64,000 nucleotides of DNA from Druceiella hillmani (lineage: Eukaryota > Arthropoda > Insecta > Lepidoptera > Hepialidae), in assembly GCA_039881145.1 (NCBI GenBank), contig JAYKKI010000127.1, positions 2,666,001-2,730,000 of the forward strand, read 5' to 3'. This document shows, one piece after another, positions 15,234 through 50,172 of the stretch. Under the pieces are notes generated by a model. That model was not told the origin of the DNA. It saw only the letters and a program-made list of their open reading frames with translations, and made no database searches. Every line of letters starts with the position of its first letter. The stretch's first letter is position 1. The position numbers and the translations under genes are program-made.

Positions 15234-17519
15234 TTATTGCTTTAATTTTTTATTGTAATGACTACGAAATGACTGGCAATATTAACACAAGAGGAGTCGT
15301 GATTATCGAGGAACGAATATGAAGAAGATGATGTAAAACGACAAATAGAAACTGTTCATATTGCTGAGTGTTGAGTGAAAATTAGGCAATGGGGAAGAGC
15401 TACAATAAATTTAAGCGAAAGATTTAAGATATAATACCCCGACAGGTAGACCTACGCTTATTATCTAATAATCATATTTGAAACGTCTCTCAAAATCTAT
15501 AATCCGCATTTTTTGGTTTGTTTGAAAATGGAAGAGAAGAAAGGTGAAATGTGCTCCATATTGTGAACACATTTGAAGTTGAATATTTTGTAGAAGAGGT
15601 TAAACAATTAAAAGAGTTAAATGGGATGTCAATTTAACAGACCTTTCTCGCTAGGATATTTAAATGTCTTTTTATTTTTATTTACAACAAAAGCCTCTCT
15701 TGTTATCTAAAAAAAATATAAAAAATATTTACTCTGTTGATTAAAATCTTCATCTGAACTATATACTTGTAAAATTTAATGTGGGTAGATCTAAAACTAT
15801 AAAGATTACGATGTTGTGATAGACCGACGGTACACATGGACTGTACTGGCTCCGTGTTTACTGACTACGCATGTACAAAAAAAGTAGGTGATTAATCAGT
15901 TTGAAGAAGTGTATTTGAGCAGGTAAATGAAGAATTGTTAGAATAATTAATTTACATTTAATATGTATAGGAATGAAGAAAAAACAATCAAAAAACTTTT
16001 CCCGTCCATATATAAGTAACAGCTAAATCCTCACTTGTCCCACGGCAACAAACCGACATCACTGTATCTGAGCGAACATCAGCAACTTGCCAACTGCAAA
16101 TTAGCTTGAAGAAGCTGAAACTAACAACCAAGTTTCTTTAACATCCCCAGCGGGCTGTTTACACAGTATCTTTCGCTTTGTGGATTTAGTTCCGCGTTAC
16201 TCGTCGACTTGTGCGCAAATGAAATGTTTTTTTTAATCGCATTTGTATGAGGAATAGATTCCGTCTAACAATTGTGGAAATGTTTGAATGCATCGGACAT
16301 AACTTCTACTTTGCGTACTATCAATTGTATAAAGTCCAAAAGTATTCTATCTGAACGACACAGCAATGGACGTTTCATATTGGACAGAATTTCAATTCTT
16401 TAGCTACTAATCATGTACCCTTAATTAGTCTTGAAGACTTCTCGAAATTTTAAATTTATTTTTTAATAAAATACAATAATTAGTGTTAAGTAAAGTATGT
16501 TAAATGTTAACAGGTAATATTTCTTTTCTTCTAGTTCTTTACTCGACCTCTAGTTTTTGAACTTTTCATTCATTTATATTTTTAAGGCAAAATTTCGTAA
16601 TTACGAAATTATTTATTTTAGGTTGAACAACATAAATAACGAAATAGTCGAGTATCAATTTAGACTACACTACATGCTGAAACGCAAAAGTTACATACCA
16701 ATGTAAGTTGTAATGTAACATCTTTGAAAACGCTTTGCGGTAATTCCCTGCAGTGTTTCAAGCTCGGTTGGATCACGCACGCTTTGGTAAAAGTTAGCGA
16801 GAAATGCTTTAAAATTATAACAGGGAACGGTAATAAAAATTAAATATTAAAACTCAGTGAAATTGCTTTATATCAATTACAAATTGTCTATATTTTTGTG
16901 TATGGTAATTTGTGATTGGGAAGTTATTGGCCATTGTTATGAAAATATAAATAAAATATAAATGCATGAATTACATGGCCGACTTTTCGTTAGGCTCATA
17001 AACTAAACCTAAAAGATACAATCATATGAGTATTTACACTTTTTTTGTTTACTTACTGACTAACTTGTTTACTTTATTCAGCAATTTAAGAAGTACCAAA
17101 CAAAAAAATTATTAACCTATCAAAATTATACCTATAAAAATTATATTTGTTCGGTGTAGTGACAAATTTAGCGTAAAATACAGAACATATTTTTCATACC
17201 TTTGAATTAAGTAAATTTTGAGAATGTTATAAATGTTGCAACAACATAAGATCGATTTGGATAAAAAAAATTGAAATTAATTTTGAATTTGATAATTAGC
17301 ATTATCCTTTTAACATAATTATTGTGATTTTTAAAACTTTTCAATGCAATTAATTTTAGTTTAATTATTTTTTTAGATCTTCAAAAAATAACACCTTACA
17401 CAAGATCTTAAGAGATCTTAAAAAAATGCGCACAATCTTTGATTTGGGAAAATTTCTTGAAAGAATATAGTGTCTTTCATCTACTACTAAAATACTCAGG
17501 AATAAATTAGAAATACTGG
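15234..17519. other. Outer part of left arm, no gene recognised
   Basis: The stretch is matched by 48,120-50,172 in the right arm. A GC-richer patch at about 16,030-16,210 contains, on the minus strand, the open run NAELNPQSERYCVNSPLG, which resembles another minus-strand run at about 26,240-26,330. Bases about 16,235-16,445 have no counterpart in the right arm. Confidence 0.4.
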
Positions 17520-19010
17520 GAATGCACCGACGACAAAAAAAATACCATTACTATTCAAGTATGCTACATGATGGCTCATGTGACCAGAACGGCGACAATA
17601 TGTGGAAATCCACATAAAAAAATTTGTACGTCTGAAGACCTAAGACATCTGGTTAAACGGTCTAAGTATAGATATATGTGTAAATATCTTCTACAATTAT
17701 GACAAAAAATAGTTCTAGAAGAGAGTCATCAAGCAAACAACAAATTAATTAAAAAATTTAAAGGAACGAAATTCCAAAATAAAACATTTACTAACTATTT
17801 AAAAAAAAACATTTTCAAACATTTCAAAATAAAACATTTACTAAACTATTTTTGACGGATTTCCACCCAAAAAATAATATATTTAAAGTTAGATATTCCT
17901 ATAAAGACTTAGACCAAAAGAAGCACAAATTTGGGGTTACTGGGGATAAAAGGTTTGATGAGAGCTGATGTAGCTATATAATTGTTAGAACAGTGTTTGA
18001 GTTCATTTAAGCTCAATCTCGACGACATAATTACTTTTTCTATAGACGGGTCCAGTGTAAGGGTGTTAACATGGCTAAGAACGGTCACCAACGACTGTCT
18101 TATGCCCATGGAATACACTTGGGGTGATTGACATATTGTATAAACCCAGAAAACTTCAGGTTTCCAAACTAATACGACCGCAAAGATATTGATACTGAAG
18201 AAGGAAATGAAGAAATTAGTGATAGATTTTTTATAGGCCAATCTAGATTTTCATAGCTAGACTTTTATATAAATATATTAGTTATAAAGTAAGAGGAGTG
18301 GCTAAATATTTCTATAAATCGCCCTTGAAAAAGACACATTACCAAAATATGCTTTAGAAGTGTACAGAAAAAAACCTTGATCTGACATTAAATTGTAAAA
18401 CAAGATGAAGTAGCATGTGATATATGTTTGAGATATAGGTTTTTTAAATTAAAAACATGCATGATGAAGGCGTTACTGGATTTGAAATCCAACGCGAAAT
18501 TTATAGACAAAGAAATAGAAGACATGTATAGCATTCATCGTAGTTTAGAAGTAATAAAACAACAGTGACGTCTTTACTTCGCCGAGATTCAAGTTTATTA
18601 AAAGCGAACGCTGCATTAACGTTTCTGCTTAATAAATTGGATCTTTACTTAAACGAATCCTGTGAACAATTTGTTTTATCTCTCAGGAAAAGAATACAAG
18701 GAAGACGAACAATTGCATATGATCTATTATATTATTTGTATAAAATGAAGAAATTTTCACAACCGCATTTGTTGAAACATTCTGAAAACCGTAGTTACAT
18801 GAAATCAGAACATTTATTATATAATTATTAGATTCTACGACCTCGTTTGCAAAAATCCTGATCACAAGTAGTGATGGTTGAGACGAGGAGTTAACCATCG
18901 TATAACAATTTTAAAAGAGATACACAAAGCTACGAGAGAAAACAAAGATTCCTCTAGAGAAAACAAGACCTAGAATCTGTTGTACAATTTTTGTTGTCTG
19001 TACCTTGTAG

Positions 19011-19047
<37 letters not shown>

Positions 19048-19068
19048 TATATATATATGTATATATAT

Positions 19069-19104
<36 letters not shown>

Positions 19105-19205
19105 TGAAGCTGAAAGAGCTTCTTCTTCTACCAGCTATTTTTCTAACAAACTGAGAAGTTCCTTATTAAGGAACGTCTTATCGTTTTAGCCATCATATTT
19201 CCAGA
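17520..19205 (+). pseudogene. hAT-superfamily transposase remnant (left arm copy)
   Basis: Conserved hAT blocks can be read in order with frame changes. About 18,006-18,050 gives LNLDDIITFSIDGSSVRV, where the family has a D-V-TDGAS-MV block. About 18,080-18,150 gives HQRLSYAHGIHLGVIDILYK, matching the C-AH-IHL-V-D-LYK block. A degenerate TRW-S-ML block lies near 18,385-18,430, followed by LLDLKSNAKFIDKEIEDMY. The frame 18,565-18,831 carries SSLLKANAALTFLLNKLDLY and LRKRIQGRRTIAYDLLYYLY, typical of the helical insertion region. The C-terminal dimerisation domain follows at about 19,105-19,205 (EAERASSSTSYFSNKLRSSL, matching the EAERAFS----KIRSRL signature). A (TA)n tract sits between the last two blocks. 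The gene has stops and frameshifts and is dead. The 110-codon minus-strand frame over 17,909-18,241 is a shadow. Confidence 0.85.
19011..19104. repeat. (TA)n tract inside hAT fossil (left)
   Basis: An interrupted TA dinucleotide tract separates the hAT helical region from its dimerisation domain. It is matched at the mirrored place (46,472-46,568) in the right arm, so it predates the palindrome. Confidence 0.95.
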
Positions 19206-19794
19206 AGCAAAAAGCAAATCATTTGTTATATCTCATTTATGTTCTATTTTTATTTACATACTGTAGATCTATTGAAGTAATTAGGATCTTATTATCGTCA
19301 TTAACTTCATGTATTTAATGCGAAAATATGCAGTAGAGCACGCAAGACTGTAGATTTCTAGGTTCTTCTAGGTTATAAAACTAGTCATGTGAACGACCCG
19401 TTTTTAGACAATTATTTCCAGGTTGAGGGTCATTGCGGCATAATAAGACTGAATTATTAACCGGATAGGTAAACTACTGAGTATATTATGCAAAGTTTTG
19501 TTAGATTTGTATAAACCTTTTTATATACACTGAAAGAAGAAAATACTTAGCTTGTTAAGCGTTTTCATCATTCATTTTTAAGAATTGACTTATAAAACTA
19601 AGTTGCTCTTTATTATTCCACGTCGAGATTAAAGTCAATATTGATTTATCGAAATTCAATATATAACCTAATTAATTATTGCTAACAATAGCCTAGTAAG
19701 GTTTTGTTAGCTTACATGATTAATTGATTAAGAAAACGAAATGATCTTAAAACGATGCAGATAGGCAAGATGTTTCTCACTTAATGTTATATGC
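19206..19794. other. Left arm DNA between hAT fossil and small ORF
   Basis: Matched by the right arm at about 45,835-46,370. No open frame or motif recognised. Confidence 0.4.
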
Positions 19795-19980
19795 TCATAG
19801 TATAAATTGAAAGAAAAGCACCTGAGTTAAATAATGCTTACACGAAAGACAATTTATTTTATGCACTGTGCACATCATTGTGACTCCATAAGGTCGTGAA
19901 TTCACGATGTTAATGTTTTCTAAAACTACTCCATGCGCAATTTTTTTGAATTTCGGTTGATCTTCGTTTGTTGCTAACAT
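19795..19980 (-). pseudogene. Small ORF shared by both arms, unknown (left copy)
   Basis: A 61-codon frame beginning MLATNEDQPKFKKIAHGVVL. The mirrored copy at 45,629-45,832 keeps the frame (starting MLATNEGHPKFKKFVHAAVL) with many substitutions but no stop, and both contain a TMMCTV-KINC-SCKHYL segment with paired cysteines. I do not recognise a family. In the right copy a ~680 bp insertion lies just before the start codon. With only two copies, retention of the frame may be chance; it could also be an exon of an old transposon gene. Confidence 0.3.
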
Positions 19981-21418
19981 TATTCTTCAAAAACATGTAC
20001 ATTCATTTTCATATATAACGTAAGGATGGTAATGATATTTTGGCATGAAGCAGTCGATCAAATTGAGAAATTCATTAAGGTGAAAATTTTATATAGATCA
20101 TTTCAGGATCAGGATACATGATAACAAACTCCGTCTACTTTTGTTTGTTAGCTTGCTTACATAACGAATTTTGGTTACAGTAATGATAAATTTGTTTTTC
20201 TGTGTTGAATTTAATTTTTTTCTCTATAATATATAATTAGTGTAGTTGTAACATTGAACAATTAAATAACAGTATTTAATTTCAGTTAGCAAATAATTTG
20301 ACCCCCGCCACTTAGGGTAAATAACAAATAAATTATTCGACTGGTCGATATTTAATTTCAGCTCTTTAAAGGCATTATTTTTGCCCTAAATACAGAATAA
20401 TTTGTTGTTATCTAGTCGTAATTGGCGATACTTGTTTGAAAGAAGAGAATTAATATAAATGTGGAAAGGAGTGTGCGCCGTAAAAAAATAATTTTCATAA
20501 AATTGTTTGTTTAATTAAATTTTTGTTGCTATAGTGGTGGAAACATGTCAATGATAAGAAAACTTGTGGAATAGATGGCTAATTATAATTAATTCATACT
20601 AACTTTTTATTAGCTTAATGAGAAAATTCCTATAGATGCTAATGCATGATCTATCTGATGAGAAGCTGAATGCGATTACATAAAACGTTAACGTATTCAT
20701 GCAAGCAGCAGAGTTTAACTTTATTTAAAACTTATGAGTCACGGTTTAAGAGAGCGGGTAATTATGAACATTAAATTTATTGAATATCATAATAAAATGT
20801 TTGTTGCAAATATTTGTTTCGTTAATGCGTAGCAAAACATCTCATTTAGTATATAATAAAATGAGAAGAGAGGGATTTTTTATACATTCATACTATGAAG
20901 TAATGTGTTACCAGATAGGTATCTTACAATTATTTTGAGACTACGTTCACGACTTCAGTTTTCAAAGGTTCATTTTTAACAGATTAAACTTCAAAGTGAA
21001 GTGTATCGTCTCTAATTTTTAAACCGTGAATTTAAAAAATCTGAATGTTGTAGCAATTGATCATAACTTCCAATTTGAATGAATTCCGCTAACTTGTGAC
21101 AAGAATTTCATCAGATATAATCCACTAGATTATCTTACTTTATACACGTTTCGATATTCATTTGGCTGGTTTCAATTTCTCAATTCGAACCAGACAAAAT
21201 AATCAAGCGTTCTAACTAGATCAGCATATCTGTAAACTGTTAAAGAAATACTGCTGTGGCAATTTTTAAGCTATCTATTATCCGCCATGAATTAAGAGAA
21301 TGACTTCAGTAGGGCGTTTGAATCAGCTAGGTTTCGCATGGTAATTCGGAGTAGTTAGAACAAAGCGTCGTGAAAACTATTTCATCACTTTGCGTTCTTT
21401 GCAGCTTCAATAAACTTG
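19981..21418. other. Left arm DNA between small ORF and piggyBac
   Basis: Closely matched by 43,504-44,939 in the right arm (for example cccccgccacttaggg at 20,302 and its mirror at 44,620). No gene recognised. Confidence 0.45.
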
Positions 21419-23831
21419 CACGTATATGGGACACCCGTGTCCCTAAATATGAAATATGTCTTAACTGAATTTCCATTATTTTACATTAGTTTTATTCAAA
21501 AATATTTGTTCAAGAATACGTTTTAAATTTCACGCCCTGCTTTATAATAGTAAAAAATAGTAAAAATTTTTAATAGTAAAAAATACATGAAAGTTGATAT
21601 TTTCGCGGGCTCATTAAAACTGTTTTTATTTAAATTTGAGTGTGTATTTGATGTATTTTTTATTTACACAGTGCTACATTTCGTTATAATTGTAAATTAA
21701 TATAGTTATTTTATTAACATTTCTAAGGATTCATTAAAATATAATATCTACAATTGAACTTAAAATTTAGGGGACCTATTCGTCTCATTACACGTAATTT
21801 GTCAATTTGACTTGTATTTTATGTAAATATATTTTTTTTATTATAATATTATTCTACATAATTACATATAATACCATTTCACTGTTTTAGAATCTTGAAG
21901 AAACAAGAATATTTTCTTTGGAAAAAAATTAAATAGATATCTAATGGCGACGAAGGATATCTAATGTTTCCACATCCCCATCCTAATGTTTCCCAATATC
22001 TATTGTTTCCACATTTCTATTACCTAATCCGCCTTGCAGAAATACAATCACAAAATTTCATTTTAGGCAAAACATATATTGTCCTCACATTTTTTCGAAA
22101 AACGAATTTGGATTTGGTAAAATAAATTTTCTTCAATAATCTGATTCATTGGACGCTACAGATTTCTTTCAGTCATTTACAGAAATAAAGAATTTGAATG
22201 AAAATTTAGTTATTCCGAAATTGATGTGATATGCTCATCATAATGGGTCTGTTATTACTACCGATCCCCCAGAAATGACAGCATTTATCAGAATGAACTA
22301 TGTCATGGGTTATTACGTTTTGCCTAGTTTTCAATGATATTGATCTGCTGTACCTTAAAAGGATACACGTGTACCATACGTGTCTAAAGTTATGCCTCTG
22401 TAAAGATTCGAGAAAATCAGAAGGAATCTCCACTTTTTTGATAATGAAGCACAACTGTCGCAAGGATTTTCTTAATTTGATAGAGAATAAAAATACAACC
22501 AGTAATGATTCACTTCAATACAATTTTTCAATCGGCCATGAACAATACTATTACTCAATCTAGGAATCAACATGTATTAAAGTTTAAAGGACATAATTTG
22601 ATGAAGCAATATAAACAAAATAAATCAGTACAAAGAAGCTTCAAATGTGGTGCCGTGCGATTCTAAAACGAGTCATTTATTTCAGTTTGATTTATATGCA
22701 GACAAAAAACCATTTGGACTTAAAATAGGACAGGGCGAAGGGACTAGGTAATTTTTTCTTGAGTTTGATAAAGTTCTTGCAAGGCACTAGGATGCAAGGT
22801 GTAATTTGATATTTTTTTTAATTCACTCTAATTGCAATATAAACATTAAAAGATATATCATCACTTCAAAAAGTCATTAAAGAAAAATCATTAAAGAATA
22901 TATCATCACTTGTGGTACGCTGCCCGGAAGGTAGCGGAAAAATAGTTCGAAAGTACACTAACGGATAAAGACATGAGGAAAGGAGGCATTTTTACCACTA
23001 ACTTTGAAAGAACATCTTTCTTCAAGAGGATGGACAACAAGTTTGTACATTTGTCTACTGGTTTCCTTTCACCAATACCAATATCAATTATGAAACGACA
23101 TCAAGTTGGTTCAGCCCAAAAAATTAAATGCCAAACGCCCGCCCATCGTCTGTAAGTATCATCGTGACTCAGAAAAAGGTCACAAATTGACTGAAAATCA
23201 AAAATAAAATATTATTTGCAATTATTTTTAAGTCTGATCGACATTGCAGTGAACAATGTCTACACGCTTTATATAAAACTCTACGAGGCGTATCGAATTG
23301 AAGGAACGATGCTTTCATTGTTAGAATATCGGTGTTTCGTAACAATGATAGGAGATTTTCCAATACAAAAAATGCCTTGCTTACCATGTCCATGACAAAA
23401 AAGAGGATCCAAAGCATCGGCTTCAGAAAATCGCTTCCTATTCATATCGTGGTAAAAGACACTAACCGAAAGAGTTGCGTCAATTGTGCGAAGGCGGGCA
23501 CAGATAATGGCACAAAATATATTCGCAGACTTTGCACTGCGCATTCGTGTTTTCCTTCTTTCAGTAATTATTTTGGTCCTCTCCTATAGCTAAATAAATG
23601 TATTTTATAAGTATATGTTCGTTTATTATTCTATATTATCTACTCAAGATCTCTACATGGTGCAATTTTCAATATTAAAACTTCTATACAATTTTACCAG
23701 AGATTTTGCAAAAGACATTTATATAAACAACTTTCTTAAACACATGTTGGAAATATATAATAATGGATATAATAATGCAGCTATTTACTTAAAAACAAAT
23801 TAAATTTTTTTCGCATTTGTTTGTGAATGGG
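21419..23831 (+). mobile_element. piggyBac-family transposon, dead (left arm copy)
   Basis: Transposase blocks read in order over about 22,130-23,589 in shifting frames: ATDFFQSFTEIKNLNENLVI, an ITTDPPEMTAFIRMNYVMGY block, a RFEKIRRNLHFFDNEAQLSQ block, then (other frame) IHFNT-FQSAMNNTITQS followed by RNQHVLKFKGHNLMKQY. In this block the family's IDE (with its aspartate) is replaced by RNQ. Then come SFKMWCRAILKRVIYF, at 22,965-23,150 DKDMRKGGIFTTNFERTSFF and DNKFVHLSTGF, and finally a cysteine-rich tail (RKSCVNCAKAG) as in piggyBac C-termini. The 3' end is ...GAATGGG followed by TTAA at 23,832-23,835. The 5' tip (TTAA plus CCCTTT, present in the right arm) is deleted here. Private stops add to frame lesions shared with the right copy. 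Neighbouring antisense frames are shadows. Confidence 0.92.
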
Positions 23832-24039
23832 TTAAAGGATTCTAATTTAATCCTCCTGTAGACCGATCGTATATGTTTTGACATAACCACGTTGTTACAA
23901 CAGCTCGAGCTTTGAACATTGTTTATCTTCTCTTCATAGGCAATAAATTTGAATAAATATTAATTGATCAAAATGTGGGATGCGAATAATTATATAATAT
24001 ATTGTTTTTTCTCGCATTGCAGTTTTTATAACATAATTA

Positions 24040-24095
24040 AATGAAACTATGTGATGTCGTTTTATTATGAATAATGAATTTCTAACAACAAAAAG
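24040..24095. repeat. Fragment of the ribozyme-bearing repeat family (left)
   Basis: The string attaaatgaaactatgtgatgt followed by aataatgaatttct also occurs beside the hammerhead-like motifs at 29,340-29,390 and 35,190-35,240. The mirrored right copy (about 40,740-40,838) is longer and reaches gcaaaatatattcaatattcaag. The ribozyme core itself is absent here. Confidence 0.6.
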
Positions 24096-24529
24096 CAAAA
24101 CTTAACGAGAATACAAAGAAAAATTCGCAGACACGAAAACAAATTTGAAGTTATGGTTTCATTTTATTTCTTTTATGAAGGTATTTGGAAATTATTATTT
24201 TTGATTTTAACTAACGTCTTAAATATACAAAGTAACATTTTTAGTTTCTTACTTTATGTATAGTGCTTTTACTCATGTGTTAGGATCTGTTTACATTTAA
24301 ATATTTATTAGATACTAACCACCTCTCCGCCTATCGCTTTTGAATTAATTGTATATATCCTTTTAGACTACGGTCTGTAAAAAATTTATACTGTTGTACC
24401 TATACTAATTTTCTCACATGTAGACTACAAAAGGTATTATTGTTATTACTAGTTAGAGGAAATTGTGAGTTCAGGCTCACTCACGCTTTTATAAAAACAC
24501 CTCGCAACAATACGTTTGAGTACGGCTAG
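24096..24529. other. Left arm DNA, no gene recognised
   Basis: Matched by about 40,400-40,735 in the right arm, which holds about 100 bp more near 40,690-40,790. Confidence 0.4.
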
Positions 24530-24693
24530 CTACTGCAGGGAACAGGATTTTTTCTTTTGATTCCACTTCCTCAAAATATTAGCCATGTTAGATTCTAAGA
24601 TCCAAATGTTTCTTTTTTCCACACGAGCTAAAGCCTGATCAAGGCTTGTTTCTTTTACAACATCAAGTAAAATATATAACAAACAAAATTTAT
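24530..24693 (-). pseudogene. Open frame shared by both arms, unknown (left copy)
   Basis: Read on the minus strand the frame is open for about 54 codons and includes ETSLDQALARVEKRNIWILE and RKWNQKKKSCSLQ before a TAG stop. In the right arm (40,064-40,414) the equivalent codon is TGG and the frame runs on. The charged, helical composition looks more protein-like than its surroundings. I cannot assign a family; a fragment of a transposon protein is one possibility. Confidence 0.3.
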
Positions 24694-25620
24694 GTTAAGA
24701 AGACGGTATAAGTGATTTGCTTAATCCATCAATGTAACACGGCTATATTAATCAATATGAAAAATCTGTATTATCACAAACATTCTAAATACATTTTAAC
24801 GCATTTTTTCTTCCAAGATATTAGATTTTTTTTAGAATAATCGTATTCACTTTATAAATAACTTAAAAATTTCAACGTAGTGACTTATAAAGGTTTATGT
24901 TTTGCTGTGGAATGTAAACAATTAAACAGACGAAAAAACAATTTCATATGTACAAGTTTTTTTTTATAATTCAAGTGTGTATAAAATTGTTGATTCTTAT
25001 ATCATATTTTATTTTTTTCTTAGCAATTACACAAGTTCATATGTAAAATAATGACTAAATGTTTAGTTCGAGCAATTTGTGCAATCACATTCCGACAGCG
25101 TTATTTTCGGTTAAAGATAGTTATTAATGGCTAGCAAGAGAAAGAGATCCTATAACCATACAGGTCATATAATAAATTTTCACTTTTCCCTCAATTGTAT
25201 ATTCAGATGCTGTTCGATCAATTTTAAATTACAGTACAGTTTGAAAATCAAAAGATTAGAGCTTATTATAAAAATGTTTTATTAATGACTTCATTTTAAT
25301 CTAACGCTTTTGAAGTGTAGCCGCTACCGTGTTTTTATCCACCACGAACGAACCAATGTTAAGTATGTAAGATTTTAATGTAACAAAAAAAACGGCCACA
25401 GTGTAAAATAATTTTAAATTTATATCTTTTCAAATTAGAAATATTTTTAGCTATAATTTTTTCCGGATCAGGATATCAATAGATAAACATTTTTGTATTC
25501 TTGAACATATATTATTGTGTAATTGTTTAATCACAAAGTACATCAAATGTAAGCGGAAATCTAATATGCCAGTGCGCCGTATATTTATTTACTTAACTTT
25601 ATATTTACAAATTTATTAGC
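24694..25620. other. Left arm DNA with a left-specific segment
   Basis: No gene recognised. About 25,085-25,365 is absent from the right arm, flanked by caatttgtgcaa on one side and agattttaatgta on the other. About 25,450-25,585 is the single left copy of the ~152 bp unit that is repeated in the right arm at 38,812-39,173. Confidence 0.5.
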
Positions 25621-25678
25621 TAAACTATGTTGCGATAATTACTACATATATATATAATAATTATCGCAACATAGTTTA
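25621..25678. repeat. Perfect 21-bp inverted repeat (left arm only)
   Basis: Arms 25,621-25,641 (taaactatgttgcgataatt plus a) and 25,658-25,678 are exact reverse complements around a 16-base AT loop. The right arm has this string only once (about 38,733-38,754), so one side was added, or lost, after the arms separated. Confidence 0.95.
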
Positions 25679-26049
25679 GATAATTCTTTATATTTCCTAC
25701 GTTTATTAAATGATTTTTTATCACCATTTATTTCATTTTCATTCACACAATAATAACGCACTATTTATAAATTTTCTTTCATTGATCTTTTATCATATTC
25801 ATCCTGGTATATGTAAATATTACTTCATCTCTCTTAAATATTTATTGGATAAAAATTGGATTAAATTTAATATTATGCAACATAAGATAATACCCTGTAA
25901 GTTAATATGTAAATGTTAAATTAAAATAACCTGTAAAATTTGAAATGAAATAGTAAAAGAACGAATGATACGGTAAATGCGTTGAAAATATAAGGTTTTA
26001 AAAATGATAAATATAAGAGACAAGTTAAATCAAGTCATGTGTCTTAATA

Positions 26050-26328
26050 TTGCTAGATTATCCCAGTAAAGTTTTCGGAAAACGTTCAAAGTTTTGTATT
26101 GGCCGTACTAAAGGCATGGTTAAAGTTGAGCAATGCCAATTTTACCACTCATTTGTCAGAGTAAAATCCTTAAGTTTCTCATCGCGACATATCAAATGTC
26201 AACAACAGACCGTAAGGCAACTGTGGAAATGGGGAAGTTTTCATTGCGTGTTGATGTTTCCAACAAGGTTGTTCAGAGAGTATCTTTCACTTTGCGTATT
26301 CGGGTCCATGTTAGTTGCAAAATGGTGA
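26050..26328 (+). pseudogene. Open frame kept in both arms, unknown (left copy)
   Basis: A 92-codon frame containing GKRSKFCIGRTKGMVKVEQ and FSSRHIKCQQQTVRQLWKWG. The mirrored frame 38,343-38,065 is also open with few changes. A second frame on the same strand (26,133-26,336) and a minus-strand run with MDPNTQSERYSLNNLVGN overlap it, so the true coding strand, if any, is unclear. The base composition is less AT-rich than the surroundings. I recognise no family. Confidence 0.25.
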
Positions 26329-27271
<943 letters not shown>

Positions 27272-27680: not shown

Positions 27681-27724
27681 TCTTCGAAGTATGCTACATA
27701 CAATGTATGTAGCATAATCTGAAG
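27681..27724. other. Short hairpin shared by both arms (left copy)
   Basis: atgctacatac and gtatgtagcat form a perfect 11-bp stem around aat, with an outer tcttc/gaaga pairing. The mirrored copy at 36,896-36,940 folds even better, so the hairpin predates the inverted duplication. It could be a remnant of a small inverted-repeat transposon or a microRNA-like hairpin; neither is proven. Confidence 0.7.
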
Positions 27725-37516: not shown

Positions 37517-37554
<38 letters not shown>

Positions 37555-39173: not shown

Positions 39174-40063
39174 CATTGATTTTCCAATCATAACATAAAA
39201 ATTTGACTATTTAAATTATCCATATATCGATAATTTTAGTTATGTTATCTAACAGCAGATATAAACATATGTATATACATAAACTTACATATATATTTAT
39301 ATGGTAGTTATGTTATCCAGACGAAGCTCGTATCCCACTTGAACTAATACGTCAAAGTTTCAGCGAACACCGAAGCATTAATAGATATAATGTATCTAGG
39401 GAGAGTGAATATTTTCATCTGAATTCTTAGGAACATATGTGTTGTAATTGAATTTTTTAATGAAATTTACGGGAACTGAGGATTGTATGATATCAATGAT
39501 TCTTCTTGTGATTGATATTACTGATATATAATCAGCTTAAATTAAAATTGTTATAATCTAATACGTATGTAGCCAGAAATGTTTCTAATTTGAAAAGATG
39601 TAAATTTAAAATTATTTTACACTGTGGCCGTTTTTTTTGTCACATTAAAATCATATATGCATAACATTTTGCACAAATTGCTCGAACTAAATACTTAGTG
39701 ATTATTTTACATATGAACGTGTGTAATTGCTAACAAAAAAAAATCAATATGATATAAGAATCAACAATTTTATACACACTTGAATTATATAAAAAAACTT
39801 GTACATATGAAATTGTTTTTTCGTCTATTTTATGGTTTACATTCCACAGCAAAACATCAAACCTTATAAGCCACTACGTTGAAAATTTTAAGTTATTTAT
39901 AAAGTGAATAAGCTTATTCAAAAAAAATCTAATATCTTAGAAGAAAAAATGCGTTAAAATTGATTTAGAATATTTGTGATAATACAGATTTTTCATATTA
40001 GTTAATATAGCTTTGTTAGATTGAGGGATTAAGCAAATCACTTGTACAGTGTTCTTCACATAA
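39174..40063. other. Right arm DNA with sequence absent from left arm
   Basis: About 39,174-39,550 has no counterpart in the left arm. It includes the inverted copy of the gttatctaacagcagata motif and a TA-rich run. The remainder matches about 24,700-25,085 and 25,365-25,445. No gene recognised. Confidence 0.45.
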
Positions 40064-40414
40064 AATTATGGGCGTTGTGTATTTTATATTTTACTCAATT
40101 TTGTAAAAGAAACAAGCCTTGATCAGGGGTTAGCTCGTGTAGAAAAAAGAAATATTTGGATATTAGAATCTAACATGGCTAATATTTTGAGAATGTGGAA
40201 TCAAAAGAAAAAATCCTGTTCCCTACAGTGGATAGCCGTACTCAAACGTATTGTTGGGAGGTGTTTTCAAAAAGCGTGTTCAGGCACACAATTTTCTCTA
40301 ACTAGTAATAACAATAATACCTTTTGTAGTCTACATGTGAGAAAATTAGTAAAGGTACAAGAGTATAAATTTTTTTCAGACCGTAGTGTAAAAGGATATA
40401 TACAATTAATTTAA
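40064..40414 (+). pseudogene. Open frame shared by both arms, unknown (right copy)
   Basis: Open from about 40,064 to the stop at 40,412-40,414 (about 116 codons). An internal ATG at 40,175 starts MANILRMWNQKKKSCSLQWI; upstream in the same frame is ETSLDQGLARVEKRNIWILE. The left arm has a TAG where this copy has TGG. The lysine-rich tail and open length are unusual for this AT-rich context. I do not recognise the protein. Confidence 0.3.
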
Positions 40415-40739
40415 AAGCGATAGGCGAAGAGGTGGTGTCTAATAAATATTCAAATGTAAATAGATCCTAACACACATACGTAAAAGCAGTATACATAAAG
40501 TAAGAAATTAACAATGTCGCTTTGTATATTTATGACGTTAGTTAAGATCAAAAATAATAATTTCAAAAATTAAATGAAAAGAAATAAAATGAAACTATAA
40601 CTTCAAATTTATATTTTCGTGTCTGGAATTTTTTTCTGCTTAAGTTTTGTCTTTTCCTTTATATTTTTTTTTCTTCAAAATCCTGTCGCCATTAATATAA
40701 ACATGACATGATCCCATTTAATTTAAAAAAATCATTAAT

Positions 40740-40838
40740 TTATATTAAGAAAACTTGAATATTGAATATATTTTGCGTTAATTTTGTAGAAATTCATTAT
40801 TAAAAATAATACGACATCACATAGTTTCATTTAATGGT
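40740..40838. repeat. Fragment of the ribozyme-bearing repeat family (right)
   Basis: Contains ttgaatattgaatatattt, gcgttaattttgtagaaatt, cattatt and then aatacgacatcacatagttt, which match the extension next to the hammerhead-like motifs at 29,300-29,400 and 35,190-35,270. Its left-arm counterpart at 24,040-24,095 is shorter. Confidence 0.65.
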
Positions 40839-41039
40839 ATTATAAAAAATGTAATGCGAGAAAAGAATATATATTATATAATTATTCTTGTCCCATATTT
40901 TCATCAATTATTATTTATTAAAATTTATTGCCTTTAAATAGAAGATAAACAATGTTCAAAGCTCGAGCTGTTGTAACAACGTGGTTTTGTCGAAACATAT
41001 ACCATCGGTCTACAGGAGGACTGAATTAGAATCCTTTAA

Positions 41040-43499
41040 CCCATTTGCGAATCAATCCGAAAAAATTTTAGGTATTTTTAAGTAAACAGTTGCATTATTA
41101 TATCTATTATTATATATTTCCGGCATGTATTTAAAAAAGTTGTTTATATAAAAGTCTTTTGCAAAATCTCTGGTAAAATTGTGTCGAAATGTTAATATTG
41201 CAAATTGCACCATATAGAGATCTTGAGTAGATAATATAGAATAATATACGAACATATACTTATAAAATACATTTATTTAGCTATAGGAGAGTACCAAAAT
41301 AATTTCGGAAAGAAGGAAAATACGAATGCGCAGTACAAAGTCCGCGAATATATTTTGTGCCATTATCTGTGCCCGCCTTCGCACAATTGACGCATCTTCT
41401 TCGGTTAGTGTCTTTTACCACTATATGTACCGGAAGGGATTTTCTGAAGCCAATGCTTTGGATCCTCTTTTTTGTCATGGACATGGTCAGCCAGGCATTT
41501 TTTGTATTGGAAAATCTACTATCATTGTTACGAAACACCGATATTCTAACAATGAAAGCATCGTTCCTTCAATTTGATACGCCTCGTAGAGTTTTATATA
41601 AAGCGTGTAGGCAATGTTCACTGCAATGTCGATCAGACTTAAAAATAATTGCAAATAATATTTTATTTTTGATTTTCAGTCAATTTGTGACCTTTTTCTG
41701 GGCCACGATGTCTACACCACTCATATTTATACATACAGATGATGGGCGGGCGTATGGCATTTAATTTTTTGGGCTGAACCAACTTGACGTCGTTTCACAA
41801 TTGATGTTGGTATTGGCGAAAGGAAACCAGTAGACAAATGTACCGCCTTGTTGTCCATCGTCTTGAAGAAAGATATTCCTTCAAAGTTAATGGTAAAAAT
41901 GCCTCCTTTCCTCGTGTCTTTATCCGTTAGTGTACTTTCGAACTATTTTTCCGCTACCTTCCGGGCAGCGTACCACAAGTGATGATATATTTCACAAGTG
42001 ATGATATATTCTTTAACGAGTTTATATTGCAATAAGAGTGAATTAAAAAAATTATCATTTTCACACCTTGCATTCTAGTGCCTTGCAAGGACTTTATCAA
42101 ACCCAAGAAAAAATTATCTAGTCCCTTCGCCCTGTCCTATTTTAAGTCCAAATGGTTTTTTGCCTGCATATAAATTAAACTGAAATAAATGACTCGTTTT
42201 GGAATCTCACGCCACCACATTTTGAAGCCTCTTTTTACTGATTTATTTGTTTATATTGCTTCATCACATTATGTCCTTTAAACTTTAATACATATTGATT
42301 CCTAGATTGAGTAATAGTATTGTTCATAGCCGATTGAAAAGTTGTATTGAAGTGAATCATTACTGGTAATATTTTTATACTCTATCAAAATTAGGAAATC
42401 CTTGCGACAGTTGTGCTTCATTATCAAAAAAGTGGAGATTCCTTCTGATTTTCTCGAATCTTTGCAGAGGCATAACTTTAGACACGTATGGTACACGTAT
42501 ATCCTTTTAGGGTACAGTAGATCAATATCATTGAACACTAAGCAAAACGTAGTTCCTTCCGATAAATGCTGTAATTTCTGGGAGATCGGTGGTAAATACA
42601 GATCCATTCTGGTGAGCATATCACATCGATTCCGGAATAACTAAATTTTCATTAAAATTTTGTATTTCTGTAAATGACTGAAAGAAATGTGTAGCGTCCA
42701 ATGAATCAGATTATTGAAGAAAATTTATTTTACCAAATCCAAATTCATTTTTCGATAAAATATGGGGACAATATATGTTTTTCCTAAAATTAAATTTTCT
42801 GATTGTATTTCTGCAAGGTGGATCAGGTAATGTGGATGTGGAAACAATAGATTGTGGTCCATTTGTAGGTGCAATGATCCCTTCCGATACCCCTATTTTG
42901 ATATCTTGATCGATGAACGTCCTGTCTTTCTCGTTCAACGTGAAGGTATCTTCACAACCGCTACGTCGGCCATTAGATATCTATTTCATTTTTTTCCAAA
43001 GAAAACATTCTTGTTTCTTCAAGATTCTAAAACAGTGAAATGGTATTATATGTAATTGTGTAGAATAATATTACATTAAGAAAAAAATATAATGACGTAA
43101 AATAGAAGTCAAATTGATAAATTACGTATAATGAGACAAATAGGTCCCCTAAATTTCAAGTTCAATTGTAGATATTGTATTTTAATGAATTCTTAGAAAT
43201 GTTAATAAAATAACTACATTCATTCACAATTATAACGAAATGTAGCAATGTGTAAATAAAAAATACATCAAATACACACTCAAAATTAAATAAAAACAGT
43301 TTTAATGAGCCCGCGAAAATATCAAGTTTCATGTATCTTTTTAATATTTTTTTCCCGTGCAAGACTACCAAAGCAGGGCGTGATATTTAAGATGTATTCT
43401 TGAACAAATATTTTTTAATAAAACTGATGTAAAATTTTAAAAGTCAGTTAAGACATTTTTCATATTTAGGGACTCGGGTGCCCCATATACGTGAAAGGG
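41040..43499 (-). mobile_element. piggyBac-family transposon, dead but with both ends (right arm copy)
   Basis: A complete 2,460-bp element. TTAA lies at 41,036-41,039 and again at 43,500-43,503, the exact target duplication of piggyBac. The ends read CCCTTTCACGTATATGGGGC at the transposase 5' side and CCCATTTGCGAATCAATCCG at the 3' side, sharing CCC-TTT-like tips. The transposase runs on the minus strand from about 42,940 to 41,281: INFLQ-stop-SDSLDATHFF, a TTDLPEITAFIGRNYV block, RFEKIRRNLHFFDNEA (with CAA where the left copy has a stop), the FKGHN-MKQY block with RNQ in place of IDE, the MRKGG-F block, and the Cys-rich tail RRRCVNCAKAG. Frameshifts, some shared with the left copy, make it inactive. 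The two longer antisense frames (41,326-41,764) are shadows. Confidence 0.94.
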
Positions 43500-43503
43500 T
43501 TAA

Positions 43504-44939
43504 GAAGTTAATTGAAGCAGCAAAGAACGCACAGGGATGAAATAGTTTTCACGATGCTTTGTTCTAACTACTCGAATTACGCTGCTCGAACTACGAATTA
43601 CCATGCGAAACCTAGCTGATGCAAACACCCTAATGAAGTCACTCTCTTAATTCGTGGCGGATAATACATAGCTTAAAACCACAGCAATATTTCTTTAACA
43701 GTCTACAGATATGCTGATCTAGTTAGAATGCTTGATTATTTTGTCTGGTACGAATTGACAAAACGAAACCAGCCAAATGAATATCGAAACGTGTATAAAG
43801 TAAGATAATCTAGTGGATTATTTCTGATGAAATACTTGACACAATTTAGCGGAATTCATTCAAATTTGAAGTTATGATCAATTGCTATAACATTCAGATT
43901 TTTTAAATTCACGGTTGAAAAATTACAGACGATGCACGTCACTTTAAAGCTTAATCTGTTGAAAACGTGGCTTTGAAAATTGAAGTCGTGAACGTAGTCT
44001 CAAAATAATTGAGAGATTCCTATCTAGTAACACATTACTTCATAGTATGAATGTATAAAAAATCCCTCTCTTTTCATTTTATTAAATACTAATTGAGATG
44101 TTTTGCTACGCATTAACGAAACAAATATTTTCAACAAACATTTTATTATGATATTCAATGTTCATAATTACCCGCTCTCTTAAACCGTAACTCATAAATT
44201 TTAAATAAAATTAAAATGTGCTGCTTGCATAAATACGCTAAAGTTTTATGTAATTTCATTCAGCTTCTCATCAGATAGATCATGCATTAGCATCCGTAGG
44301 AATTTTCTCATGAAGCTCATAAAAAGTTAGTATAAATTAATTATAATTAGCCATCTATTTCACGAGTTTTCTTATCATTGACATGTTTCCACCACTATAG
44401 CAACACAAATTTATTTAAACAAAAAATTTAATGAAAATTCATTGTTTACGGCGCACACTCCTTTCCATATTTATATTAATTCTCTTCTTTCACAAAATTA
44501 TTGCCAATTAAGACTAGGTAACAACAAATTATTTTGTATTTAGGGCAAAAATATTGCCTTTAAAGAGCTGAAATTAAATATCGACAAGTCGAATAAATTT
44601 TTTGTTAATTAACCTAAGTGGCGGGGGGTCAAATTTGCGAACTGAAATTAAATACTGTTATTTAATTGTTCAATGTTACAACTACACTAATTACATATTA
44701 TAGAGAAAAAAATTAAATTCAATACTGAAAAACAAATTTATCATTACTGTAACCAAAATTCGTCATGTAAGCAAGCTAACAAACAAAAGTAGACAGATTT
44801 TGTTATCATGTATCCTGATCCTGAAATGATCTATATAAAATTTTCACCGTAATGAATTTCTCAATTTGATCGACTGCATCATGCCAAAATATCATTAGCA
44901 TCCTTACGTTATGTATGAAAATAAATGTACATGTTTTTG
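43504..44939. other. Right arm DNA between piggyBac and insertion
   Basis: Mirror of 19,981-21,418. No gene recognised. Confidence 0.45.
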
Positions 44940-45004
44940 TCTTTAGTTACCAGATTTAAAAATCATTTTTAGCATTATAATTGCAATTAAATGAGATGTT
45001 ATTG

Positions 45005-45077
<73 letters not shown>

Positions 45078-45622
45078 CACTCGCTGCAATAATTATACTT
45101 AGTACAATAAAAATAATTAGTAATTTCTATCATGAAAGCGGATTAACATGGTTGACATTGTAATAAATCAAACATAATGAGTGTTGATCACTCAAAATAT
45201 TTTATCGTTGCTCTTTAAAAAATAACCAAAATGAGTAATAGGTAAAAAATAAGAAATAAGTCAAAGTTAAAAAAGTTTCAGATAGCTCTAACGAGATTTC
45301 TTTTTTCGAACATTCAATTTCCATCTGACGTATTTCTATGTCTGCTATTCCAATTAAGTTGACTAAACATCTGCTCAAAACAAACAATATGTTTAAAGTT
45401 TTAAGTGGGCTAGACGATAGGCAAAAGATGGATGAAATTTTTTTCCCTTGAAATTATTTGTAGTTCGTATTAAATTAAAGAAAAATATATGAAAAGTACG
45501 ATAAAAACAATCCATTTGTGGATAAAAAGCTTTAGAACTAAAACCAGAGAATAATTACATAAATTTCAACGAAGCTTTTCCTCTAGTTCAACTTTTATTT
45601 CGTAAAATGAATTTTCTTTTTA
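44940..45622. other. ~680-bp insertion specific to the right arm
   Basis: The left arm reads acatgtttttgaagaataatg without interruption at 20,000-19,980 (reverse complement), whereas here tctttagttaccag... to ...gaattttcttttt intervenes between catgtttttg and aagaataatg. It contains a 70-bp (TA)n run at 45,008-45,077. No transposase, terminal inverted repeat or clear target duplication is visible, so its class is unknown; loss from the left arm is the alternative. Confidence 0.75.
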
Positions 45623-45628
45623 AGAATA

Positions 45629-45832
45629 ATGTTAGCAACAAACGAAGGACACCCGAAATTCAAAAAATTTGTGCATGCAGCAGTTTTACAAAACATTAAC
45701 ATGCTGAATTCACAACCTTATAGAGTCACAATGATGTGCACAGTGCGTAAAATAAATTGTCCCTCGTGTAAGCATTATTTAACTCTGGTGCTTATCTTTC
45801 AATTTATACTATTTTCATATAACATTAAATGA
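45629..45832 (+). pseudogene. Small ORF shared by both arms, unknown (right copy)
   Basis: A 67-codon frame starting MLATNEGHPKFKKFVHAAVL with INCPSCKHYL near the end; mirror of 19,980-19,795. It begins directly after the right-specific insertion. No family recognised. Confidence 0.3.
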
Positions 45833-46369
45833 AAAACATCTTGCCTATCTGCATCGTTTTAAGATCATTTCGTTTTCTTAATCAATTAATCATGTAAGTT
45901 TACAAAACCTTACTCGGTTATTGTTAGCAATAATTAATTAGGTTAGATATTCAATTTCGATAAGTCAATATTGACTTTAATCTTGACGTGGAATAATAAA
46001 GAGCAACTTAGTTTAGCAAAAGGTTTGTACGAATGAAATAAATTAAAATAAAAAAATAGGTTTGTACGAATCTAACAAAAATATGCATAAAATACTCAAT
46101 AGTTTACCTATCCGGTTAATAATTCAGTCTTATTATGCCGCAATGACCCTCAACCTGGAAATAATTCTCTAAAAGCGGGTCGTTCCATGTCTAGTTTTAT
46201 AACCTAGAAGAACCTAGAAATCTACAGTTTTGCATGTTCTGCTGCTTATTTTCGTATTAAATACATAAAGTTAATGACGATATTAACATCCTAATTACTT
46301 TAATAGATCTGCAGTATGTAAATACGAATAAAACATAAATTATATATTAGAAATTTTGCTTTTTTCTTC

Positions 46370-46474
46370 TGGAAATGTGATGGCTTAAACGATAAGACGT
46401 TCCTTGATAAGAAACTTCTCAGTTTGTTAGAAAAATAGCTGGCAAAAGAAGAAGCACTTTCAGCTTCAATATCG

Positions 46475-46550
<76 letters not shown>

Positions 46551-48120
46551 GTATGTATATATATATATTAATGTTGAAACTGAACGACAAGGTATAGACA
46601 ACAAAAAATTGTACACAGCTAGTAGGTGCCATCCGCCACTAAGAGCACTAGCATAAATGTACATTTGAACTCAAATAATCTAAATATTCATAATAGATTC
46701 TAGGTCATGTTTTCTCCAGAGGTATCTTTGTTTTCTCTCGTAGCTTTGTGTATCTCTTTTAAAATTAATATACGATGGTTAACTCCTCGTCCCAACCATC
46801 ACTACTTGTGATCAGGATTTTTGCAAACGACATCGTAGAATCTAATAATTATATAATAAATATTCTGATTTCATGTAAGTACGGTTTTCCGAATGTTTCA
46901 ACAAATGCGGTTGTGAAAATTTCTTCATTTTTATACAAATAATATAAAACATCATATGCAATTGTTTGTCTTCCTTGTATTCTTTTCCTGAGAGATAAAA
47001 CAAATTCTTCACAGGATTCGTTTACTTGAAGATTCAATTTATTAAGCAGAAACGTTAATGCAATGTTCGCTTTTAATAGCTATGAAAATCTTGAATCACG
47101 GCGAAGTAAAGACGTCACTGTTATTTTTAATACTTCTAAACTACAATGAATGCTATAAAGGTTTTCTATTTCTTTATCTATAAATTTCGCGTTGGATTTC
47201 AAATCCAGTAACGCCTTCATCATGCATGTTTTTAATTTAAAAAATCACCCAAACATATATTACATGCTACTCCATCTCGTTTTATAATTTAATGTCAGAT
47301 CAAGGTTATTTCTGTACTCTTCTAAAGCGTATTTTGGTAATGTGTCTTTTTCAAGGGCGATTTATGGAAATATTTAGCCACTCCTCTTACTTTATTACTA
47401 ATATATTTATATAAGAAATCTAGCGATGAAAATCTAGATTCGCATATAAAAAATCTATCACTAATTTCTTAATTTCCTTCTTTAGTATTAATATCTTTGC
47501 GTTCGTATTAGTTCGGAAACCTGCAGTTTTCTGGGTTTATACAATATGTCAATCACCCCAAGGTGTATTCCATGGTGATAAGACAGTTGGTGGTGACCGT
47601 TCTACCCATGTTAACACCCTTACGCTGGCCCCGTCTGTAGCAAAGAAATTATGTCGTCGAGATTGAGCTTAAATGAACTCGAACGATATTCTAACAATTA
47701 TATAGCTACATCAGCTCTCATCGAAACTTTTACCCGCAATAACCCCAAATTTGTGCTTTTTTTGGTATAAGTCTTTATAGGAATATCTAAATTGTAATGT
47801 AATATTTTTTGGGTGGAAATCCGTCAAACATAGTGAATGTTTCATTTTTGGAATTTCGTTCCTTTAAATTTTTTAATTAATTTGTTTTTTGCTTGATGAC
47901 TCTCTTCTAGAACTATTTTTTGTTATAATTGTAGAAGATATTTACACATATATCTATACTCAGAACCGTTTAACCAGATATCTTAGGCCTTCAGAAGTGC
48001 AACATTTGTTATGTGGACTTCCACATATTGCTGCCGTTCTAGTCACACGAGCCATCATGTAGCATACTTAAATAGTAATGGTATTTTCTTTGTGGGCGGT
48101 GCATTCCCAGTATCTCTAAC
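46370..48120 (-). pseudogene. hAT-superfamily transposase remnant (right arm copy)
   Basis: Mirror of the fossil at 17,520-19,205. On the minus strand: HHQLSYHHGIHLGVIDILYK near 47,600-47,530, the helical region at 47,037-46,849 (NESCEEFVLSLRKRIQGRQT, then FTTAFVETFGKPYLHEIRIF), and the dimerisation signature EAESASSFASYFSNKLRSFL near 46,470-46,400. The (TA)n tract (46,472-46,568) again separates the last two blocks. Frames are broken at several points, some the same as in the left copy. Not functional. Confidence 0.82.
46472..46568. repeat. (TA)n tract inside hAT fossil (right)
   Basis: Interrupted TA dinucleotides at the mirrored position of 19,011-19,104. The I/Y-rich frames at 46,300-46,664 are artefacts of it. 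Confidence 0.95.
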
Positions 48121-50172
48121 TTATTCCTGAGTATTTTAGTAGTAGATGAAAGACACTATCTTGTCTCAAGCAATTTTCCCAAATCAAAGATTGTGCGCAT
48201 TTTTAAGATCTCCTTGTGTAAGGTGTTATTTTTTGAAGATCTAAAAAAATAATTAAAATAAAATTAATTTCATTGAAAAGTTTTAAAAATCACAATAATT
48301 ATATTAAAAGGATAATGCTAATTATCAAATTCAAATTTATAGCAAAATTAATTTTAATTTTTTTTATCCAAATCGATCTTATGTTGTTGCAATATTTACG
48401 ACATTCTCAAAATTTAATTCAAAGGTATGAACCAATATTCTGTATATTACGCTAAATTTGTCACTATACCCAACAAATATACTTTTTATAGGTGTAAATT
48501 TAATAATTTTTTTTGGTACTTCCTAAATTTCTGAATAAAGTAACCAAGTTAGTCAGTAAGTAAACAAAAAAAATGTAAATACTGATATGATTGTATATTT
48601 TAGGTTTAGTTTATGACCCTAACGAAAAGTTGGCCATGTAATTCATGCATTTATATTTTATTTATATTTTCATGACAATGGCCAATACCTTCACAATCAC
48701 AAATTACCATACACACTATAAAGACAATTTGTGATTGATATAAAGCAAGTTCACTGAGTTTTAATATTTAATTTTTATAACCGTTCCCTGTTATAATTTT
48801 AAAGCATTTCTTGCTAACTTTTACCAAAGCGTGCGTGATCCAAACGAGCTTGAAACACTTTGCAGGGAATTACCGCAAAGCATTTTCAAAGATGTTACAT
48901 TACAACGTACATTGGTATGTAACTTTTGCGTTTCAGCATGTAGTGTAGTCTAAATTGATACTCGACTGTTTCGTTATTTATGTTGTTCAACCTAAAATAA
49001 ATAATTTCGTAATTACGGAATTTTGCCTTAAAAATATGAATGAATGAAAAGTTCAATAACTAGAGGTCGAGTAAAGAACTAGAAGAAAATAAATATTACC
49101 TGTTAACATTTAACATACTTTACTTAACACTAATTATTGTATTTTATTAAAAAATAAATTTCAGAATTAGAAAAAAAAAACATTTCACTTGCGCACAAGT
49201 CGACGAGTAACGCAGAACTAAATCCACAAAGCGAAAGATACTGTGTAAACAGCCCGCTGGGGAAGTTAAAGAAACTTGGTTGTTAGTTTCTGCTTCTTCA
49301 AGCTAATTTGCAGTTGGCAAGTTGCTGATGTTCGCTCAGATACAATGATGTCGGTTTGTTGCTGTGGGAAAAGTGGGGATTTAGCTGTTAATTATATATG
49401 TACGGGAAAAGTTTTTTGATTGTTTTTTCTTCATTCCTATACATATTCAATGTAAATTAATTATGCTAACAATTATTCATTTACCTGTTCAAATACACTT
49501 CTTCAAACTGATTTATCATCTGTTTTTTTTTGTACATGCGTAGTCTAAACACGGAGCCAGTACAGTCCATGTGTACCGTCGGTCTATCGCACCATAGTAA
49601 TCTCTATAGTTTTAGATCTACCCACATTAAATTTTACAAGTATATAGTTCAGATGAAGATTTTAATTAATATAGAGTAAATATTTTTTAAATTTTTTTAG
49701 GTAATAAAAGAGGCTTTTGTTAAAAATAAAATGAAAAAACATTTAAATATCCTAGCGAGAAAGGTCTATTAAAATGAAATTGATATCCCATTTAACTCTT
49801 TTAATTGTTTAACCTCTTCTATAAAATATTCAACTTCAAATGTGTTCACAATATGGAGCACATTTCACCTTTCTACTCTTCCATTTTCAAACAAACCAAA
49901 AATGCGGAGAATAGATTTTGATGAGACGTGTCAAATAAGATTATTAGATAATAAGCGTAGGTCTACCTGTCGGGGTATTATAATCCTTTTTTCTCGTTTA
50001 AATTTATTGTAGATATTCTCTTCCCCATTGCCTAATTTTCACTCAACACTCAGTAGTATGAACAGTTTGTATTTCTTGTGTTATATAATCTTCTTCATAT
50101 TCGTTCCTTGATAATAACAACTCCTCTTGTCTTTATATTGTCAGTCATTTCGTAGTCATTACTTTCAATAAT
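48121..50172. other. Outer part of right arm, no gene recognised
   Basis: Mirror of 15,234-17,519, lacking the ~210 bp found at 16,235-16,445. No open frame with a known motif. Confidence 0.45.

Follow-up and report, generated by a model that had tools for sequence, protein, structure and literature searches.

Fold-back inverted duplications, in the literature cited here, come from patients, tumours and yeast selections. In the human series of Hermetz et al. 2014 (PMC3907307), each of the 21 junctions that were sequenced has a spacer, of 766-70,466 bp; 13 of them show inverted microhomology of 2-8 bp, three show longer repeat homology and five carry insertions. In yeast, fold-back synthesis has been described in which the other end is captured by end joining, with very short inserts (Yu et al. 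2024, PMC11724301), and short-stem hairpins near a break are reported to form fold-back inversions, those with large loops being one of two classes (PMC7467729). The DNA considered here belongs to the assembly of another organism, the hepialid lepidopteran Druceiella hillmani. It is a stretch of 64,000 nucleotides (the window), positions 2,666,001-2,730,000 of contig JAYKKI010000127.1 (C127), and it contains a large diverged palindrome whose left arm is probably an interstitial fold-back inverted duplication. The kind of rearrangement is already known, and it is unusually legible here: neighbouring paralogues retain the pre-event state, so that both junctions, the loss of DNA and the putative annealing site can be read.

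With the human cases, as they are presented in PMC3907307, the locus shares an inverted and a direct copy around an unduplicated spacer of a few kilobases, microhomology at the spacer edge and the loss of DNA beyond the putative break. A copy-neutral spacer, inverted microhomology and an adjacent deletion form the signature of fold-back in that account; fold-back is the preferred reading. The 5.6-kb spacer and the 7-bp microhomology both lie within the ranges of that series; set against those cases, the present copy has a length of 14-15 kb and is about 8% diverged, with the apex of a hairpin element as its putative annealing site. The locus also resembles the local fold-back inversions of yeast as outlined in PMC11724301, in that the inverted insert would have come from fold-back synthesis at one side of a break and capture of the opposite side, and a 7-bp stem beside the break with a loop of several kilobases would resemble the large-loop hairpin class (PMC7467729). 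The features are given below in window coordinates, units 2 and 3 being related copies located further downstream on the same contig.

11,478-15,250, plus strand: left flank (X), the apparent ancestral neighbour of the lost segment, with matches to units 2 and 3.
15,250-15,255, no strand: junction J1, from X to the outer end of the inverted copy, where the homology to unit 3 ends and the reverse-complement homology to the right arm begins.
15,255-29,472, minus strand: left arm, apparently the derived inverted duplicate of the right arm, with 92.4% identity outside 25,030-25,700.
29,349-29,472, minus strand: half copy of the hairpin element, ending at the apex, 94% identical to half of 34,978-35,219.
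29,466-29,472, no strand: junction J2, a 7-bp microhomology (GCTATCT) between the hairpin apex and the putative ancestral start of the spacer, where the window, the reverse complement and unit 2 agree.
29,473-35,098, plus strand: spacer (S), single copy, apparently in ancestral orientation, collinear with unit 2.
29,766-31,025, minus strand: probable later insertion in the spacer, with unit 2 continuous across the site and an RVT_1 fragment inside.
34,978-35,219, no strand: dispersed palindromic hairpin element of about 245 bp, self-complementary and similar to a miniature inverted-repeat transposable element, at the boundary between spacer and right arm.
35,099-50,162, plus strand: right arm (A'), apparently the ancestral copy, collinear with unit 2 and with part of unit 3.
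50,163-64,000, plus strand: right flank (D), unbroken continuation of the right arm, 94-99% identical to unit 2 per kilobase, to about 69.5 kb.

The arms, with lengths of 14.2 kb (left) and 15.1 kb (right), pair along their whole extent: among the self-BLAST matches listed, 15,255-29,474 is aligned with 50,162-35,097 by 11 collinear inverted pieces, with identities of 89.0-92.5% per piece and E values from 0 to 5e-161. The giant diverged palindrome proposed by an earlier, sequence-only reading is thereby borne out, with arm coordinates right to about 20 bases, as are the sharp inner ends which it described: these lie at 29,472 and 35,099, where the hairpin element has its apex. The outer ends are also sharp (about 15,250-15,255 and 50,162). 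The arm identity of about 94% estimated in that reading was slightly too high, since a three-way MAFFT alignment gives a substitution identity of 91.4% over 13,461 aligned columns, or of 92.4% (Kimura two-parameter distance, K2P, 0.081) over 12,827 columns when 25,030-25,700, where the left arm aligns poorly, is excluded. This region, facing 38,924-39,669, is the sole long stretch that aligns badly between the arms, and a 151-bp tandem repeat of 2.4 copies is found in the right arm at 38,807-39,171. Gaps private to one arm include about 680 bp absent from the left arm at 19,987, and 206 bp and 194 bp absent from the right arm. The window is AT-rich, with a GC content of 28.7%, and its many short self-matches are due to AT/TA dinucleotide arrays of about 45-205 bp, located at 6,507; 9,596; 19,012; 27,116; 37,351; 45,007; 46,475; 51,144; 52,767; 55,106 and 63,664.

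The assembly searched comprises 2.586 Gb in 181 contigs, and the neighbourhood compared includes 200 kb downstream and 20 kb upstream of the window, with concatenate coordinates equal to the contig position minus 2,666,000 (L008-L027 are labels for pieces of C127:2,730,001-2,930,000). The window is part of a local array of duplicated units of about 61-65 kb, present on a single contig in both orientations. Unit 1 is the window itself, extending further downstream. Units 2 and 3, in the same orientation as unit 1 and about 64 and 125 kb downstream of it, have their spacers from about 91.6 kb and from 155.7 kb and their arms at 99.6-114.6 kb and 161.5-171 kb, respectively; unit 4 is inverted and extends over about 221-180 kb. 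Beyond the arm of unit 3, the right flank was not seen in the same orientation in the 200 kb downstream, and the 20 kb upstream of the window yielded short matches only and no further unit. Inverted relatives of the spacer exist about 0.13-0.46 Mb upstream of the window, and the spacer piece 31,500-32,900 gave seven matches from seven candidates, all of them on the window's contig. More relatives of the array were observed at C127:2.22-2.36 Mb. No host genes have been recognised in the array so far.

This array indicates which of the two arms came first. In units 2 and 3 the spacer lies directly beside the right arm, in the same order and orientation as in unit 1, and no match to either arm is found between X and the spacer; moreover, in unit 2 the right arm passes unbroken into the right flank at the site of the outer end. 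The left flank of the palindrome has its own counterparts, as X is 81% identical over 14,480-15,250 to unit 3 at 151,300-152,076 (concatenate), diverging at 15,250, while pieces of X in 12,842-14,474 match unit 3 at 68-82% and 11,478-11,715 matches unit 2 at 71%. The part of X at about 13.2-14.35 kb is a dispersed repeat, and the part at 14,480-15,250 matched, besides itself, unit 3 only (40 scored of 660 candidates). In unit 3, X is followed by about 160 bases and then by a 3.3-kb segment (152,237-155,504), which is also present in unit 2 at 87,366-90,472 with 70% identity. No sequence in the window matches this shared segment of 3.1-3.3 kb, and the left arm occupies the place where it would be. 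The order found in units 2 and 3 thus supports the right arm as ancestral and the left arm as a derived inverted copy of it, which would have replaced the lost segment; the ancestral order supported by these paralogues is X - lost segment - S - A' - D.

The spacer, of which the window holds no second copy, is collinear with unit 2 from 91,600, both over 29,480-29,765 and from 31,026 onward, and to the right of J2 the window tracks unit 2 at 79% and then at 90% identity. Two interruptions break the collinearity: unit 2 carries a hairpin element, and the window a stretch of about 1.26 kb (29,766-31,025). The latter is a probable later insertion, because unit 2 is continuous across that site, and it includes a degraded reverse transcriptase fragment at 30,699-31,013 (RVT_1, E 4.4e-8).

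At the other edge of the spacer, the right arm starts inside the hairpin element of about 245 bp, and the left arm retains half of this element, ending at its apex. The element at 34,978-35,219 is self-complementary (89% over 245 columns), and its single strand is predicted to fold with -100.4 kcal/mol (z -26), leaving a 7-base apex loop, TATCTTT. Its relatives are spread over many contigs, with 80 matches when 40 were scored of 2,008 candidates genome-wide. No copy was found at the corresponding place in unit 3, so the element was probably acquired, or handed on, after the separation of unit 3. Another hairpin element is present in unit 2 at L010:7,737-7,900, flanked by a 12-base target duplication as judged by eye, and unit 1 resembles the empty site of that element. 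At J2, the motif GCTATCT occurs in the window, in the reverse complement of 35,099-35,105 and in unit 2 at 91,592-91,598. An exact inverted microhomology of 7 bp is reached by 0.13% of 200,000 random junctions (chance 0.0013), and five of its seven bases fall in the 7-base apex loop of the hairpin. No clear microhomology was found at J1.

According to the fold-back reading, a double-strand break to the left of S would have led to the loss of the 3.1-3.3 kb segment. The end at S would then have been resected, and its 3' strand, folding back across S (about 4.4 kb when the later insertion is discounted), would have annealed by seven bases to the hairpin apex at the boundary between S and A'. From there, synthesis would have copied A' outwards for about 14-15 kb, the new end would have been joined to X, and from then on the arms would have accumulated differences in much the way that ordinary duplicates do, apart perhaps from some exchange over the inner 3 kb. 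The states before and after the event are provided by the neighbouring units and by the window, from which we infer the break, the fold-back and the joining. The reading implies no function for the arms, and the case suggests that among the large diverged palindromes in assemblies some are relics of repair, rather than assembly errors or functional structures.

Several points weigh against fold-back. The human series, as described in PMC3907307, is tied to terminal deletions, translocations and rings, whereas the present copy is interstitial and joined to X; likewise, the end-capture inserts reported for yeast in PMC11724301 are mostly of 5-34 bp, at least 400 times shorter than the approximately 14 kb found here. 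Nor does J1 show clear microhomology that would account for the joining of the second end to X. Near J2, unit 2 (79-90% identical there) serves as the proxy for what unit 1 looked like before the event, and single bases near this junction are uncertain because they depend on such a diverged copy. Furthermore, the ancestral stretch from X to S is assembled from two units because each of them has a gap: unit 2 lacks most of X, and the stretch at 91.05-92.7 kb in unit 2 is missing from unit 3. Finally, over the outer 10 kb the template cannot be assigned, because the three copies are equidistant there.

A product like that of fold-back would also result from microhomology-mediated break-induced replication (MMBIR) or fork stalling and template switching (FoSTeS), in which a fork coming from X would switch to the opposite strand at the outer end of A', copy inwards and jump at the hairpin to the start of S. 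The MMBIR model, as set out in PMC2621351, was built on complex duplications with deletions, microhomology and nearby low-copy repeats, and the hairpin element would be a natural stall site for such a fork. However, two switches are required, the one at J1 being without clear microhomology and the one at J2 having 7 bp, and the inverted microhomology at the spacer edge is predicted by fold-back without an extra assumption; template switching is a possible, though rather unlikely, origin of the left arm. A third mechanism, origin-dependent inverted-repeat amplification (ODIRA), would start from an inverted triplication around a replication origin and with palindromic junctions, later trimmed to a deletion, a copy-neutral segment and an inverted duplication. 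Brewer et al. derive a 1-0-1-2-1 pattern from a triplication intermediate (PMC10766186), and the deletion and inverted duplication in that account have the same copy-number pattern and the same order as those found here. Nevertheless, the window shows no trace of the triplication intermediate which that system invokes: there are two copies only, with no third copy and no spacerless palindromic junction between arms, and more steps are needed, all of which makes ODIRA improbable at this locus.

An assembly artefact, in which two haplotypes or a fold-back chimera were joined head to head, could account for the divergence of about 8%, as the haplotypes of a highly polymorphic species could differ this much, and the haplotype join had been offered as an alternative by the sequence-only reading. 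It is very unlikely, since the outer flanks are unrelated (no match of at least 350 bp between 1-15 kb and 50-64 kb), a third and nearly equidistant copy 64 kb downstream is explained neither by a join nor by a chimera, and unrearranged counterparts of the junctions exist in the neighbouring units; in addition, a library chimera would yield nearly identical arms, and the window contains no N bases. The copy count of the arm piece 20,000-21,500 is neutral on this question, because a haplotype join would also leave just two copies here: the assembly contains three nearly full-length copies of at least 90% identity, the piece itself included and the only one outside the palindrome being that of unit 2, besides 10 more partial matches on the same contig (68-91% identical) and 11 short matches on other contigs, making 24 matches with 20 of 20 candidates scored. 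Staggered breaks are a known route to duplications at insect inversion breakpoints, and an inversion of the spacer by such breaks would leave inverted duplications on both sides; yet units 2 and 3 have the spacer in the same orientation relative to the right arm, which contradicts this origin barring a second inversion that turned the spacer back; it can hardly be credited.

The mammalian sex-chromosome palindromes likewise consist of two long inverted arms around a spacer, and their arms are more than 99% identical through gene conversion, as stated in PMC8981503 and PMC3723533. The near-identity (>99%) expected of a palindrome kept by conversion is not found here, where the arms stand at 92% (92.4% in the alignment described above) and signs of exchange between them are restricted to the inner 3 kb. 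The K2P distances are 0.081 between the arms, 0.090 between the left arm and unit 2 and 0.087 between the right arm and unit 2, with 91.5-91.8% identity of the arms to unit 2. When shared changes were polarised with unit 3 as outgroup, 29 were common to the two arms, 23 to the left arm and unit 2, and 29 to the right arm and unit 2 (8, 7 and 9, respectively, with unit 4 as outgroup). The overall relation of the two arms and unit 2 is a star. With an insect rate of about 3e-9 per site and generation, the age of the duplication would be, as a rough estimate, of the order of 13 million generations.

Along the arms, the sites at which one copy is the odd one out are evenly shared over 15,255-25,029 (left arm 300, right arm 282, unit 2 298; n=880), and over 25,701-28,800, by contrast, 159 of 311 such sites single out unit 2, a number that none of 2,000 shuffles reached in a block of equal size anywhere. 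Only in this inner 3 kb (25.7-28.8 kb) does the similarity between the arms exceed their similarity to unit 2, which fits a copy made from the right arm of unit 1 itself. A local exchange between the arms in the inner part is possible; alternatively, the excess may represent the original history, which subsequent exchange of sequence by units 1 and 2 would have blurred in the outer part. An old natural inverted duplication without homogenisation by gene conversion, as had been suggested from the sequence at first sight, thus agrees with the equidistant copies of 15,255-25,029 and does not fully hold for 25,701-28,800, with its arm-arm excess. The odd-one-out sites are clustered beyond the shuffles even when 25,030-25,700 is left out (0 of 2,000). 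The longest run favouring the two arms is not significant (269 of 2,000 shuffles; best 25-site window, 49 of 1,000), and there is a run of 14 favouring the right arm and unit 2 at 21,977-22,016 (1 of 2,000; site window, 15 of 1,000) and one of 11 favouring the left arm and unit 2 at 19,512-19,567 (1 of 2,000; site window, 0 of 1,000).

The similarity between units varies as well along the array. Within the spacer, identity per 300 bases is 82-95% between units 2 and 3; between units 1 and 2 it is 77-91% as far as 34.4 kb, after which the two can barely be aligned until the hairpin element is reached. From 35.0 kb, units 1 and 2 are about 92-94% identical in the first 1.5 kb of the arm; most of the arm gives 89-95% per 500 columns, followed by 94-99% per kilobase from 49.0 to 69.5 kb and 83-90% beyond. 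Such a profile points to a transfer of sequence between units 1 and 2 over some 34 kb. The corresponding mosaic of about 34 kb (35,000-64,000 and L008 1-5,500 against L011-L015) is mostly 89-99% identical, and one of its edges lies near the hairpin element.

Two boundaries coincide at this element, namely the inner end of the left arm and the rise of the similarity between units 1 and 2 to about 92%. It could be speculated that the hairpin family provides landing sites: a broken end would anneal to the loop exposed at the apex of an extruded element, and an ordinary break would thereby give rise to a long inverted duplication. We consider this generalisation doubtful, but the case makes the role of hairpin elements testable: if the family did act in this way, more diverged palindromes with the inner edge at such an apex would be expected in the genome.

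With regard to coding content, 30 stop-to-stop open reading frames (ORFs) were scanned against Pfam, of which 26 lie in the window, 14 of those in the arms, the window pool consisting of 44 ORFs of at least 80 amino acids plus shorter ones. None of the 14 arm ORFs scanned reached the cut-off and no gene was recognised in the arms, and the window has no ORF of at least 150 amino acids starting from ATG, GTG or TTG. Among the window ORFs scanned, the spacer fragment at 30,699-31,013 (RVT_1) was the sole one above the cut-off. Matches below it were obtained at 23,302-23,589 (zf-Tnp_2, E 0.02; DUF7695, E 0.047), at 22,297-22,560 (SPMIP5, E 0.016) and at 22,484-22,663 (CbiK, E 0.044). The ORF at 26,029-26,325 has a ratio of nonsynonymous to synonymous changes (dN/dS) of about 0.25 between the arms, from 5+5 changes only, and a search for a relative of it found none. 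Rfam gave no match at gathering level, a tRNA scan with the bacterial code gave none either, and the left arm had no match in a phage collection searched in near mode; sub-threshold microRNA matches at 35.0-35.2 kb are a reflection of the hairpin element.

Mobile-element sequences were also observed in the downstream units. A reverse transcriptase frame (L012:7,473-8,671; RVT_1, E 2.1e-22) sits in a 1.24-kb stretch of the unit 2 arm which is missing from both arms of the window. A Penelope-like element extending from L021:8,314 to L022:1,443 contains an open frame of 675 amino acids and inverted terminal repeats of about 622 bp; it is probably a young insertion, since these repeats are 97.7% alike. 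For a nearby Penelope-like reverse transcriptase frame, a lepidopteran protein was the closest among the named hits, at 64%.

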